5,463 bases of DNA, from positions 1 through 5,463 of the forward strand of contig SHMQ01000059.1 of assembly GCA_008534395.1 (NCBI GenBank). The letters are read 5' to 3'. The notes under the pieces are model-generated. The model was not told where the DNA came from and did no database searches. It saw only the letters and a list, made by a program, of their open reading frames with translations. The position numbers were made by a program, and so were the translations under genes. This DNA is from Candidatus Acidulodesulfobacterium acidiphilum. GTDB taxonomy: Bacteria > SZUA-79 > Acidulodesulfobacterales > Acidulodesulfobacteraceae. Below are positions 1 through 5,463 of this stretch, one piece after another (positions within the stretch are counted from its first letter, which is position 1; each line of letters starts with the position of its first letter).

Positions 1-980
1 ACAATGCAAATTCTGCCGGAAATAGGAATATCTTCTCCTTTAAGTCTGTTCGGGTATCCGTATCCGTCATATCTTTCATGGTGGGACAAAGCTATTTCCG
101 CTCCGAATTTCATAATTTTAGAATCCGAACCGCTAAGTATATCATATCCTTTTACTGTATGCGTTTTCATTATTTCAAACTCATCGTCGGTTAATTTTGC
201 AGGCTTTAGCAATACATAATCCGGAATAGATATTTTACCTATATCGTGCATAGGCGAAGCTTCTAAAATATCTATCTGAAAATCGTAGTCAAATCCCAAA
301 TGTTTCGCAATTATCATGCAGTAATAAGACATTCTTTCAATATGGGCTCCCGTATCTTCGTCGCGGAATTCGGCTATGCGCGACAGCCTTTTAATAAAAT
401 CGTCGCCAAGTTTTTCCTTTTCGTTTATTTCTTTACTGTAATAAGCTCTTATAACTAAGGTAATATCCAGATTTATAATTTTTTGTATGGAGTTGACGAT
501 ATTCAGAATTTCTTTGTGCGAAAAGCCGCGTTTCGGCAGTTCGTCTTTTATAAAATAGATAATTAAAGATAAGAAATAAGAATAGCTTCCCATAAAAACG
601 TTAAAGGGTATATTGACGTTTAAGTGGGTAAGACCAGTGTTAAATCTGAGAGCAAGATAATTGTCGTCGTACTTTAAGGAAAAAAGCTCTTTAAAATACG
701 ATGTATGCACTTTTCTTAAGTGTTCCACAAGTCCGGGCTTTTCAAGCATAATATCTTTCGTTTCTTTAAATTCAAGCAGATGGTCGTAAAATTTATCTAT
801 AAGGAAATCCATATTTTCAATAATCAATGAATTTATTTTTGAAAGATTTTCTAAATCGTTTTCGGTGAGTTCTAAAAATCTGTGTTCAAAATCTATGGAT
901 TTTGTAGAGAAGATATCTATAATTTTTTTTTCAATACTCGGTTTTAAATTTGCGTCTTTAATTGTTTTTAAAAGCTGCAT
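1..980 (-). CDS. Globin-coupled sensor HD-GYP c-di-GMP phosphodiesterase (partial, C-terminus off the left edge)
   Basis: The minus strand is open from ATG at 980-978 to base 1, giving 326 residues with no stop, so the C-terminus lies outside. Residues about 1-180 resemble the protoglobin sensor of globin-coupled sensors: an FYDHL helix near residue 64 and GLTHLNVNIPFNVFMGSY at 116-133, where H119 sits at the proximal heme-ligand position. A short linker leads to an HD-GYP domain from about residue 190: DTGAH (209-213), HDIGK (245-249), H274, HHE (300-302) and DGYGYP (305-310). The family hydrolyses cyclic di-GMP to pGpG/GMP in the cytosol. Inference: binding of oxygen or another gas to heme tunes c-di-GMP turnover. 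The residue four before H213 is Asp, where many HD-GYP enzymes have a Glu metal ligand. A GGGGGTG purine-rich stretch lies just before the ATG and supports this start. No transmembrane segment is seen. No operon partner is visible on its upstream side. Confidence 0.9.
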   Translation of the reverse strand, partial: MQLLKTIKDANLKPSIEKKIIDIFSTKSIDFEHRFLELTENDLENLSKINSLIIENMDFLIDKFYDHLLEFKETKDIMLEKPGLVEHLRKVHTSYFKELFSLKYDDNYLALRFNTGLTHLNVNIPFNVFMGSYSYFLSLIIYFIKDELPKRGFSHKEILNIVNSIQKIINLDITLVIRAYYSKEINEKEKLGDDFIKRLSRIAEFRDEDTGAHIERMSYYCMIIAKHLGFDYDFQIDILEASPMHDIGKISIPDYVLLKPAKLTDDEFEIMKTHTVKGYDILSGSDSKIMKFGAEIALSHHERYDGYGYPNRLKGEDIPISGRICI

Positions 981-1122
981 ATTCACCCCCACCGATATTT
1001 TAAATAAATTATTTAGGTTAATTTTTTTTCGGCAACAGATTTTCCATGTTTATAATTATTATATATTGCGCTTATTTTTCAATAGTTTGATGTTATTTAT
1101 ATTGTTAATTTATATTTTTATA

Positions 1123-1588: not shown

Positions 1589-1591
1589 GAC

Positions 1592-1619
1592 TTGAAATTT
1601 CAAAAATATGCGTTATAAT
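1592..1619 (+). promoter_or_regulatory. Near-consensus sigma70 promoter, plus strand
   Basis: TTGAAA (1592-1597), a 16-bp spacer and a perfect TATAAT (1614-1619) predict a transcript starting near 1626. No plus-strand protein gene lies downstream before the hairpin terminator at 1694-1776, so the promoter appears to serve a short RNA. It is among the best promoter matches in the window. Confidence 0.5.
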
Positions 1620-1625
1620 TAAAAT

Positions 1626-1776
1626 AAGAAAAGAAAATAAATTTTAAGAAACAATACATCACAATAAATTATAATAATATCTTTTTATGCAGCATGCCGC
1701 CGTCAGTCAGTTTAATGCTTAACTTTAAGCACATTGGACGTTAAAAACCAGTGACTGCTACGGCGGTATTTTTATA
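1626..1776 (+). ncRNA. Candidate small structured RNA (about 150 nt)
   Basis: The unit has its own promoter (1592-1619), a purine-rich unstructured 5' part (1621-1650), and a 3' structured domain. The outer stem pairs 1694-1703 with 1760-1769 (10 bp, including GCCGCC with GGCGGU) and extends through 1704-1709 with 1752-1757 after a two-base bulge. Two hairpins sit inside: 1716-1721 with 1726-1731, and 1732-1737 with 1748-1753. The second competes with the top of the outer stem for 1752-1753. A T-rich tract follows at 1769-1773. I recognise no known family; it is not 6S, SRP, tmRNA or a familiar riboswitch. It lies tail-to-tail with thiM, about 60 bp past the thiM stop. Alternative readings are a plain intrinsic terminator or a small palindromic mobile repeat (MITE or REP type). 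Confidence 0.4.
1694..1776 (+). terminator. Branched GC-rich hairpin followed by a T tract
   Basis: The 10-bp outer stem (1694-1703 / 1760-1769) ends directly in TATTTTTAT on the plus strand, the arrangement of a rho-independent terminator read left to right. On the minus strand the hairpin is followed by CATGCTGCATAAAAAG with no U run, so it is a poor terminator for thiM. The branched interior is larger than a simple terminator needs. Confidence 0.5.
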
Positions 1777-1838: not shown

Positions 1839-2651
1839 TTATCGACAAACTTCTTCAAAATTTGCGTACTTATGAAGAATATCGGAGTTGAAACTTGACA
1901 GATTATTAAAAAATTCAACCTGAAAAGAACCTGAAAGTTTTGATTTTGAAGCGGCAAGTTCTCCGCATATTCCTATTAAAACTGCTCCGGTTAAACTTGC
2001 CTTAGCGTAATTTTTGTCTATTGCCGCAAAAGCGCCCATAACGGAAGACGATATGCAACCTGCGCCGGTCATTTTAGTTAAAGCGGCATCGCCATTTTTG
2101 ACGGAAAATACGTTAGAGCCGTCCGAGATAATATCTTCTTTTCCGCTGATACAAACCGTAGAGGAAACTTTTAAGGCTAATTCTTTTGCTAAACCTATTT
2201 TATCTTCCACATGCCCTTTTGAATCCACCCCTTTAGTTTCTAACTTAACGCCGTAAAGATTTGCTATTTCGGATTCGTTGCCTCTTATTATCGCAAGCTT
2301 AATATTTGAAACTATCTCTTTAGAAGCATCGTTTCTTAAACCGCTTGCCCCTGCTCCGACAGGGTCGAATATCACCGGAATATTTTTTTTATTGGCATAT
2401 TTGCCCGCTAAAAGCATAACGTCTATTATGTCTTTAGTTAAAGTTCCGATATTTAAAACTAAAGCGTCGGATATGGAAATAATATCTTTCATCTCCTCTT
2501 TAGCGTATGCCATTATCGGGCTTGCGCCTATGGCAAGAAGAGCGTTGGCCGTAACGTTAGTTACCACTACGTTTGTAATATTGTGAACTAAAGGGTTATG
2601 TTTTTTTAAAAGTTCTAAATTTGACGATAGGTCGTTAACCGATAAATTCAT
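1839..2651 (-). CDS. thiM: Hydroxyethylthiazole kinase ThiM
   Basis: This complete 270-residue protein matches the usual ThiM length. It phosphorylates 4-methyl-5-(2-hydroxyethyl)thiazole with ATP, salvaging the thiazole half of thiamine for joining to HMP-PP by ThiE. Visible family motifs, in order, are NPLVHNITN (19-27) at the thiazole-binding N-terminus, GASPIMA (42-48), DPVGAGAS (96-103), RGNESEI (123-129), GVDS (141-144) and TKMTGAGC (192-199) with C199 at the conserved active-site cysteine. The fold is ribokinase-like and cytosolic. The start at 2651 gives the normal N-terminus, but no convincing Shine-Dalgarno lies before it (ACTTTTATATG). No thiE or thiD adjoins it within the window, and the upstream 150 bp shows no TPP-riboswitch core, so regulation is not the usual thi-box kind as far as can be seen. 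A weak promoter, TTGTGA (2748-2743), 17 bp, TAAATT (2725-2720), may drive it. Confidence 0.95.
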   Translation of the reverse strand: MNLSVNDLSSNLELLKKHNPLVHNITNVVVTNVTANALLAIGASPIMAYAKEEMKDIISISDALVLNIGTLTKDIIDVMLLAGKYANKKNIPVIFDPVGAGASGLRNDASKEIVSNIKLAIIRGNESEIANLYGVKLETKGVDSKGHVEDKIGLAKELALKVSSTVCISGKEDIISDGSNVFSVKNGDAALTKMTGAGCISSSVMGAFAAIDKNYAKASLTGAVLIGICGELAASKSKLSGSFQVEFFNNLSSFNSDILHKYANFEEVCR

Positions 2652-3250: not shown

Positions 3251-3479
3251 CTACTTGATAAGCTTGAAAAATTCTTCTTTTGTCATTTCAATATCGGTTA
3301 ATATTTTCGACAAAAGGCCCCCTGCCTATCGTTTCACCGGAGTGGACGGGGACAACGGTTGACCTTCCGTCTTTATGGGAAAGAAAAACATGACTTCCTT
3401 TTTGCCTTTTTTCGATAAACCCAAGAGTTTTAAGAAAAGAAATAAGTTCCTTGCCGGTCAATAAAGGAAGCTTGCTCAT
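3251..3479 (-). pseudogene. hicA: HicA-family mRNA interferase toxin, frameshifted
   Basis: HicA is a small dsRBD-like ribonuclease that cleaves mRNA on translating ribosomes and is neutralised by HicB. From ATG 3479-3477 the frame gives typical HicA: SKLPLLTGKELISFL, LGF, then RQKGSHVFL with the catalytic histidine H30, DGR, and VPVHSGETIGRG (43-54). After residue 54 the frame turns to nonsense and stops at 3288. Removing one G from the run of five (C5 at 3318-3322 on the plus strand) restores GLLSKILTDIEMTKEEF and on to a TAG at 3251-3253. That makes exactly 75 residues, the normal family length, with a standard HicA C-terminus. The start overlaps the hicB stop by four bases (ATGA), the usual translational coupling. 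As read, the C-terminal helix is lost, so activity is probably absent. A homopolymer sequencing error or reversible slippage is the alternative. Confidence 0.88.
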
Positions 3480-3649
3480 ATTGCAATTTTTTGGACGTCA
3501 ATAAAATTAACGGCAGGATATCCATAACTTTTTTCCTCAAGATAAAGTTCTATCGCTTCTTTAATTCTATCTCTTAACTTATCTATAGACTTAGCTTGAG
3601 TATGGCATCCGTGTAATTCGGGAACGTCGGCAATATAATATCCGTCTTC
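3476..3649 (-). pseudogene. hicB: HicB-family antitoxin, 5'-truncated
   Basis: The minus strand encodes 57 residues, beginning EDGYYIADVPELHGCHTQAK and continuing IDKLRDRIKEAIELYLEE to a TGA at 3478-3476. This is the HicB (UPF0150) fold: the second strand, the PELxGCxTQ turn and the long helix. It is the short form, with no added DNA-binding domain. The expected first strand, about 10-14 residues before EDGYY, is missing. At 3650 the sequence jumps into a 75% GC stretch with no homology and no in-frame start codon before a TAG. The promoter and start of the hicBA operon are therefore gone. The antitoxin ORF order upstream of hicA and the 4-bp overlap identify a former hicBA operon. Loss of antitoxin is tolerable only because the toxin is itself frameshifted (inference). 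Confidence 0.82.
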
Positions 3650-3694
3650 ACCGCCCCGCCGTCGCGCAGGAGCAATTCCCCGTTCGGCCTACAG
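3650..3694. other. GC-rich junction between hicB and integrase relics
   Basis: About 30 of the first 40 bases (3651-3690) are G or C, against roughly 25-35% around it. The segment starts exactly where hicB homology ends and stops at the TAA of the integrase relic. It carries no recognisable gene and looks like a deletion or recombination scar from a higher-GC source. Confidence 0.5.
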
Positions 3695-4146
3695 TTAGAT
3701 GAAAGTGTTGATTTTTCCTCTTTGGCGGCCGCATTTGCACCAGATTCCCTTCATCATCAGAATATTTTCTTTTCCGGGGGCTGTGACCACATGCCCCTTC
3801 GTTAATTCAAAAACAACGTGAGCCGATTCCTCCCTGCGGAGTCCGTATGCTGCTTCGAGGCGGAGGGCGGCGGCTACTTCGGGATACTTTCCCGATTCCA
3901 GCTTTTTTAAAGAATTTTCGGAAATAACGGCGGCAAAATTTTCGTTATCAACATTTAAACCATTTCGTCATGGGACGCTGATTTCACCATTAGTAACATT
4001 GACTAAAGCTATATTACCGCTTTTTTAGAGATTTGTCTTACTGCTGTAGCTTTATTCTCGATAGTGCCGGCACTATCCCTATCCCCTTTTGTGAAATCCC
4101 AAATATTTTTTTTAACAATATTTTTTTTAACAATTGATTCTTTTAA
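3695..4146 (-). pseudogene. Tyrosine recombinase (phage/ICE-type integrase) relic
   Basis: The clearest part, 3967 down to a TAA at 3695-3697, reads NENFAAVISENSLKKLES, then YPEVAAALRLEAAYGLRREES, then a stretch ending MMKGIWCKCGRQRGKINTFI. The LRLxAAYGLRREE block is characteristic of the Integrase_1 group of tyrosine recombinases, where its arginine is the first catalytic Arg, and GIWCKCGRQR corresponds to the family's GSWTKGGRxR segment. Upstream, past an in-frame TGA at 3970-3968, the same frame gives SGNIALVNVTNGEISVP; one extra A in the A6 run near 4021-4026 would connect it to GDRDSAGTIENKATAVRQISKK, which resembles the end of the SAM-like core-binding domain. No start codon exists. The N-terminal region and the C-terminal HxxR...Y catalytic part are absent. 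Several independent lesions mark it as long dead. GC is higher than in the neighbours (over 60% at 3841-3900), suggesting foreign origin. Confidence 0.65.
4105..4134. repeat. Perfect 15-bp tandem duplication
   Basis: ATTTTTTTTAACAAT is present twice back to back (4105-4119 and 4120-4134). Each copy contains a T8 run, so slippage is the likely origin. On the minus strand it adds IVKKN twice to the frame leading into the integrase relic. Confidence 0.85.
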
Positions 4147-4405: not shown

Positions 4406-5463
4406 ATGTCTGAAGAACAAAAAAGGCTTTTAGAGCAATCCCTTTGGGCTATAGCGGATTTACTAAGGGGCAGAATGAATGCCGACGAGTATAAAAACTA
4501 CGTATTGGGATTTATATTCTTAAAATATCTTTCCGAAAGGCAGGAAATTTATGCGGACGAACTGCTTAAGCGGGATAAAATAAAATATACAGACCTTATA
4601 GATGAAACCCCCGAAAACGATGAAATAGTTAATTTAATTAAACAGCAGAGTATTGAAAATAAAGGCTTTTTCTTAAAGCCCAATCAACTTTTTTCATACA
4701 TAGTCAGAAAAGGCAATAAAGAATTCGGAAGCGATAATTTTATTATAGAAGATTTAAAAAATATTTTAAATTCTATAGAACAGAATACCGTAGGGCATGA
4801 AAGCGAAGAAGACTTTATAGGATTGTTTGAAGACGTCGATTTAAGTTCCGCAAAACTCGGTAAAACCGAAAAAGAGAAGAACGATACCGTCATCGAGATA
4901 CTATCAAGACTTAACAGGATAGATTTTAACTTGACGGATGCCAAAAGCGATGTTTTAGGCGACGCTTATGAATATTTAATAGGGCAGTTTGCCGCAGGCG
5001 CCGGCAAAAAAGGCGGAGAGTTTTATACTCCTTCTCAGGTTTCCAGAATACTGTCCCAAATTGTAACAGCCGGTAAAGATAAAATAAAATCCGTTTACGA
5101 CCCTACCTGCGGTTCAGGTTCTTTGTTAATCCGCGTTAAAGATTATGCCGACGTTTCAGAAATATACGGACAGGAACTTAACAGAACTACATACAACCTT
5201 GCCAGAATGAACATGCTTTTGCACGGCATTAATTATACAAAATTTCATATAAGGCAGGGCGATACGTTAACAGACGACTATTTCCCGGATTTGAAAGCCG
5301 AAGCCGTTGTTGCCAATCCGCCTTTTAGCGCAAAGTGGAAGGGGGACTCCAATCCGCTGTTTAAGACTGACGAAAGGTTTAGTAAATACGGAAGCTTAGC
5401 TCCTAAAGACAAAGCCGATTATGCTTTTGCTACGCATATGATTCATCACTTAGCCGATAACGG
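4406..5463 (+). CDS. hsdM: Type I restriction-modification methyltransferase subunit HsdM (partial, C-terminus off the right edge)
   Basis: The frame is open from ATG 4406 to the edge: 352 residues of a protein usually about 500 long. An AGGAG (4397-4401) sits 4 nt before the ATG. HsdM is the N6-adenine methyltransferase that, with HsdS, methylates the recognition site and, with HsdR, forms the restriction complex. The N-terminal HsdM_N helical domain starts with LWAIADLLRG (13-22) and DEYKNYVLGFIFLKYLS (27-43). The methylase domain follows: LGDAYEYLIGQFA, then GGEFYTP (203-209), the AdoMet motif DPTCGSGS (232-239), GQEL (255-258) and the catalytic motif IV NPPF (304-307). All key motifs are intact, with no frameshift, unlike its neighbours to the left. 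It probably begins an hsdM-hsdS-hsdR operon continuing rightward. Placement next to an integrase relic and a tRNA suggests acquisition on a genomic island. Confidence 0.96.
   Translation, partial: MSEEQKRLLEQSLWAIADLLRGRMNADEYKNYVLGFIFLKYLSERQEIYADELLKRDKIKYTDLIDETPENDEIVNLIKQQSIENKGFFLKPNQLFSYIVRKGNKEFGSDNFIIEDLKNILNSIEQNTVGHESEEDFIGLFEDVDLSSAKLGKTEKEKNDTVIEILSRLNRIDFNLTDAKSDVLGDAYEYLIGQFAAGAGKKGGEFYTPSQVSRILSQIVTAGKDKIKSVYDPTCGSGSLLIRVKDYADVSEIYGQELNRTTYNLARMNMLLHGINYTKFHIRQGDTLTDDYFPDLKAEAVVANPPFSAKWKGDSNPLFKTDERFSKYGSLAPKDKADYAFATHMIHHLADN

Follow-up and report, generated by a model that had tools for sequence, protein, structure and literature searches.

Small RNAs (sRNAs) derived from the 3′ untranslated regions (3′ UTRs) of mRNAs constitute an established class in enterobacteria and Vibrio, with SdhX, MalH, FarS and OppZ among the examples, and one pair, MalH and MicX, shares a genomic location, one member having a promoter of its own and the other none (PMC9438474). 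A different association between an RNA and a reading frame is seen in SgrS, which in Yersinia appears without a functional SgrT (PMC4021124). DnrH of Deinococcus radiodurans is a heat-inducible non-coding RNA that acts on hsp20 and pairs with hsp20 mRNA (PMC6798082).

The locus described here, from Candidatus Acidulodesulfobacterium acidiphilum, is a new sRNA gene belonging to an existing general kind. As in the 3′-UTR-derived sRNAs, an RNA module ends in the intrinsic terminator of an mRNA and is tied to the 3′ UTR of a protein gene, here hsp20-A. Whereas members of that class have been studied mainly as Hfq-bound processing products beside an intact gene, in the present case the ORF appears to be gone genus-wide, the sRNA and the lost gene have related promoters, and the phylum is without detected Hfq. 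The likeness to SgrS/SgrT is that of an RNA with an ORF in some species and apparently no functional one in others, the RNA part staying in place. However, SgrT is an ORF of ∼40 amino acids at the 5′ end of the sRNA, whereas hsp20-A is a full chaperone gene of 145 amino acids with the RNA in its 3′ UTR; sequence relation to SgrS was judged by an Rfam scan alone. DnrH shares the link to Hsp20, but it base-pairs with hsp20 mRNA, has a different origin and no homology is indicated. A description of this RNA was not found in the literature.

The window, meaning the whole stretch of 5,463 nucleotides that was analysed, contains the following genes besides the sRNA:

3-992, minus strand: protein joining a protoglobin sensor to an HD-type (HD-GYP-like) domain, truncated at the window end
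1839-2651, minus strand: thiM-like gene for a hydroxyethylthiazole kinase, in convergent orientation with the sRNA
3288-3479, minus strand: HicA-type toxin-family protein, whose partner may be encoded just beyond
4406-5461, plus strand: HsdM, the methylase of a type I restriction-modification system, truncated at the window end

The first gene probably encodes a gas-sensing c-di-GMP phosphodiesterase, and the stretch 3640-4080 resembles the remnants of broken genes. The initial annotation had proposed a new sRNA with its own promoter and terminator and with no plus-strand gene to be served. The first plus-strand gene after it is indeed the type I methylase, 2.6 kb away, and the sRNA proposal is borne out by the promoter, the terminator fold, covariation in the outer stem, the lack of an Rfam match and the single copy. 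Its idea of a switch is not supported and covariation in the stem named P3 below, which it had put up for checking, is not apparent; it had also overlooked both the link to the hsp20 3′ UTR and the related promoter. We consider it likely that 1591-1773 is a free-standing sRNA gene of ∼150 nt descended from an hsp20-A transcription unit by loss of the ORF. Its parts, all on the plus strand, are as follows:

1591-1619, plus strand: promoter CTTGAAA-16-TATAAT, kept in all genus copies and related to hsp20-A promoters of other genera
1626-1694, plus strand: predicted A-rich 5′ leader of the sRNA, its start site placed from the −10 box; sequence and length vary, with indels
1695-1773, plus strand: conserved RNA module, a branched fold with an intrinsic terminator at its end (match to RNA model R1 of 90 bits, E 8.4e-15)
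1695-1703, plus strand: 5′ arm of the outer stem P1 (TGCCGCCGT)
1704-1709, plus strand: 5′ side of a P1 extension (CAGTCA) that rivals P3 for T1752-G1753, pair probability about 0.5
1711-1715, plus strand: junction TTTAA, nearly invariant across genera
1716-1731, plus strand: P2 hairpin TGCTTA-ACTT-TAAGCA
1732-1753, plus strand: P3 hairpin CATTGG-N10-CCAGTG, kept inside the genus, with other hairpins in its place in other genera
1760-1768, plus strand: 3′ arm of P1 (ACGGCGGTA), covarying with the 5′ arm
1769-1773, plus strand: T tract of the intrinsic terminator, seen in the sequence and conserved

TTGAAA-16-TATAAT at 1592-1619 is the top-scoring promoter site of the whole window and agrees with the consensus at 11 of 12 positions. 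In DNA this rich in A+T, sites of this sort abound (39 where 23 would be expected); the scan by itself is therefore weak proof, and conservation across species is what counts. On this count the near-consensus promoter first pointed out in the sequence stands well, as its position and sequence are kept in all copies of the genus. A scan of the organism's own genome with a pattern of the TTGAAA-16-TATAAT type returned two places. The −35 box, CTTGAAA, resembles those of heat-shock promoters, but the −10 box is sigma-70-like. At three loci (L184, L189 and L203) groES has CIRCE-like repeats in inverted arrangement upstream of it (TTAGCACT...GAGTGCTAA or similar); the same search, which resolved these groES repeats, found none before the sRNA, and control of the HrcA type thus seems to be distinct from the kind of promoter found at hsp20 and the sRNA.

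The module folds with an energy of −29.8 kcal/mol (1695-1773; z −4.4), a value that none of the shuffles equalled, and the longer stretch 1626-1776 gives a z of −3.4. P1 pairs 1695-1703 with 1760-1768, with an extra pair A1694-T1769, and encloses P2 (1716-1721/1726-1731) and P3 (1732-1737/1748-1753), which directly abut with no base between them. This is the branched arrangement of the initial annotation, recovered at the same coordinates down to the T tract, and P1 with the T tract forms a same-strand intrinsic terminator in all copies. A minus-strand terminator for thiM was considered and rejected, the minus strand having no T tract.

The competing extension of the outer stem is real as well: 1704-1709 pairs with 1752-1757 in about half of the ensemble and P3 takes the other half, a roughly 50:50 alternative in the window's genus. 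A switch-like interior is nevertheless not what emerges, given that the two folds exchange only a few junction pairs, other genera are without the competing pairing and nothing lies downstream to be switched. The lowest-energy prediction is a three-way junction in seven of nine representatives; two genomes (G019 and G016) favour another fold by energy alone, though P1 and the sequence of P2 are kept. The two about equally likely folds would suit a cis-acting leader, an attenuator that sets a terminator against an alternative fold ahead of a downstream gene, and in several genomes the terminator is indeed followed, after about 50-160 nt, by a same-strand uvrB or HIT-family gene. Yet the terminator stem is present in both folds, the adjoining gene in the window is the convergent thiM rather than one on the plus strand, and the neighbours vary elsewhere (uvrB, HIT, a ccdA-like gene, a convergent ATPase gene); moreover, in other genera the module closes an mRNA at its 3′ end. 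Attenuation is accordingly very unlikely, and a riboswitch or leader was rejected on the lack of a downstream gene in the window and the unlike downstream genes of other genomes. A free-standing sRNA acting in trans would be the most likely kind of function.

Comparison across genera was based on an alignment of 16 sequences from six genera; it predates the naming of the structure, and the P1 columns were nevertheless picked with these sequences in view. Pair cells are standard in 97% of cases, seven of the nine P1 pairs show changes on both sides, and P1 and P2 together reach a covariation score of 0.277, where shuffles give 0.121 and slid controls no more than 0.129. Compensatory changes are found at short range too: a G-C to A-T replacement in P1 within the genus (G006), and one further change that separates G021 from its close relative G023. 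The P2 stem is identical in all 16 sequences while its loop differs between genera (ACTT, ACTA, ATTA, ATCA, GTTA). P3 is nearly invariant inside the genus and unalignable beyond it, so that of the two stems originally nominated for compensatory changes only the outer one displays them. A palindrome of the P2 type, TGCTTA-N4-TAAGCA, also occurs 3′ of an apparent ammonium-transporter gene (L157 1501-1532, in G016; E 0.097), probably by chance.

The core of the module contains an ATG followed by a frame of nine codons (MLNFKHIGR), and action through this micropeptide instead of the RNA can be envisaged. The genus copies and those of genus g5 preserve the frame and the place of its stop, and two changes in one copy (G014b; TAA to TAG and ATT to ATC) are frame-neutral. 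The start codons and frame length nevertheless differ between genera, from 6 to more than 20 codons elsewhere and with a CTG start in G016, which leaves no conserved coding frame. The frame has no ribosome-binding site and lies inside a stable fold, and the third codon positions in P2 (CTT, AAG) are invariant beyond what coding needs. A coding role is thus highly improbable.

The RNA model finds a match in 12 of the 16 genomes of the window's genus. The four others are 59-86% complete, and missing sequence may explain them. The genus copies align from the −35 box through the terminator, and the sequence on either side is unrelated. In the six loci that have uvrB as a neighbour, over which identities were averaged, the folded element is 96.7% identical between species; the promoter is about 92-94% identical (mean 92.4% in these loci), the leader, with its indels, 64-67% (mean 67% in these loci) and the flanks about 41-46% (41-44% in these loci). 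The neighbouring uvrB shows 49.8% identity at fourfold sites in the same pairs. Only two to three changes in a 74-base stem-to-stem element at saturating divergence indicate strong purifying selection on a unit that has no ORF.

The genomic position is not constant in the genus, where uvrB, a HIT-family gene, thiM or other genes adjoin the sRNA. Such variation might be expected of a mobile repeat, a MITE or REP-like element, as might the pair of copies 1.7 kb apart in one genome. However, a DNA search finds the block once in the organism's own genome, and most other genomes also have one copy, with two in G003 and G014; no terminal repeats extend beyond the stem, and the promoter is part of the unit. 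The single copy argues against a MITE or REP, disposing of the many-copies outcome that the initial annotation had named as fatal to its proposal, and a mobile origin is extremely improbable. In G014 (L009 4182-5988) the two copies have the same orientation and flank a convergent ATPase-type gene; in G003 one of the two is more diverged. The exact core was absent from the viral contigs that were searched. The absence of a known RNA family also withstood a search: Rfam has no family matching the sRNA block of the window at E values up to 10, and a scan of nine hsp20-A loci in relatives returned nothing on the element, no gathering score being reached.

The phylum set comprises 30 genomes, and the class- and phylum-level sets are here identical to the family. 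The model matches in 24 of them, including two (G042 and G043) that were not part of it. Outside the genus, the element lies ∼20-200 nt past the stop codon of hsp20-A in 12 of 12 positive genomes; there the terminator is common to a protein-coding mRNA, which is not the case in the window's genus. hsp20-A encodes an HSP20 protein of ∼145 amino acids with the N-terminus MANVS-WDP or similar, and it was searched for and not found in the two element-negative outside genomes (G041 and G044). Copies of the genus type in G023 and G045, on short contigs with genus-type sequence, are probably misbinned. A search of the genus genomes revealed no hsp20-A ORF. Their best HSP20 is either hsp20-B, which is 51-57% identical to hsp20-A and lacks the element, or a more distant HSP20, and the sRNA leader showed no trace of the hsp20-A ORF.

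This distribution raises the question of whether the module is merely a robust terminator or 3′-end stabiliser of the hsp20-A mRNA, persisting in the window's genus as a leftover or as a terminator with a chance promoter. A terminator hairpin with a T tract ends the module in every genus, and P1 changes in sequence while its pairing holds, as terminators do. In the window's genus, however, there is no ORF to terminate, yet promoter and module are 92-97% identical at saturating divergence; the invariant P2 stem, the TTTAA and the conserved promoter are all needless for a bare terminator. We regard this explanation as unlikely.

The promoter provides a second connection to hsp20-A. The sRNA promoter was aligned to the 250 bases upstream of genes, for which a background of 225 genes gave a mean score of 21.8 (sd 4.1, maximum 38). 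The highest score, 63, belongs to the hsp20-A promoter of genus g3 (G017), and the match extends from the −35 box beyond the start into the A-rich leader. Other hsp20-A promoters score 40 in g6, 36-40 in four of the five g2 genes and 26-35 in g5 and g4; the fifth g2 gene scores 18, its upstream stretch being without such a promoter. The hsp20-B promoters score 19-35 and share a similar −35 box, so that shared regulation may account for part of the likeness. A shared regulator could explain part of the weaker scores, but not easily the g3 match. Each end of the sRNA gene thus resembles hsp20-A and the ORF in the middle is absent, so that the whole looks like an hsp20-A transcription unit minus its ORF.

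A promoter joined to the 3′ module, with and without an ORF, gives the same pattern in either direction, and the free-standing RNA could in principle be ancestral, the hsp20-A ORF having been inserted into an RNA gene in the other genera. In the hsp20 tree, hsp20-A and hsp20-B split with 100/100 support; the hsp20-A genes of five genera form one group apart from hsp20-B. The hsp20-B part places the window's genus beside g3 (fork 83/80) and inside g4 and g6, which carry both genes. As the tree has no outgroup, the direction of change depends on the A/B split, and this split, together with the nesting of the bare-RNA genus in the hsp20-B tree, indicates that the window's genus most likely lost hsp20-A. 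An ancestral RNA is decidedly unlikely. The 3′ module of the window's genus (g1) is closer to those of g5 and g4 than to that of g3, although for the promoter the closest genus is g3. One genus copy (L020) and the hsp20-A gene of G019 each have a glycosyltransferase gene upstream, with matching relative orientation and 52% identity over 392 amino acids, which supports an hsp20-A origin without proving it.

Transcription of the sRNA, its stress control, action in trans and ORF loss rather than gain are inferred, and a mechanism can be proposed on these terms. The window's genus would have lost the 145-codon hsp20-A ORF, while the promoter and 3′ module remained joined under strong selection. 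The stress-type promoter would fire alongside other chaperone genes, yielding a transcript that starts near 1626 and ends at P1 and the T tract, with P1 shielding the 3′ end. The invariant TTTAA-P2 unit would then be displayed in a constant context to its trans partner, which could be an RNA or else a protein, not Hfq, that binds RNA. The conserved part has no evident stretch resembling an anti-Shine-Dalgarno sequence. Hfq (PF17209) was detected in none of the 30 phylum genomes, control genomes being positive, which makes an Hfq-type mechanism unlikely. Opinion is evenly balanced on a wider proposal, in which the hsp20-A 3′ UTR would have a second, RNA-level function throughout the phylum and one genus would have lost the protein and kept a promoter-driven, Hfq-free sRNA with the TTTAA-hairpin motif.

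In acid mine drainage, hsp20 is among the most abundant transcripts of Candidatus Acidulodesulfobacterales (PMC6776010). Given the lack of detectable Hfq in the phylum, the invariant hairpin may indicate another RNA-binding partner. The birth of sRNA genes is seldom traceable, and this case, in which an sRNA gene would have arisen by ORF loss, has an unusually clear origin. A single small phylum shows the module in two states, once as part of an hsp20 mRNA and once as a gene standing free with a related promoter, and this makes the origin of the sRNA gene testable. The implication is that hsp20 mRNA would have an RNA function of its own, open to testing in those genera where the ORF persists.
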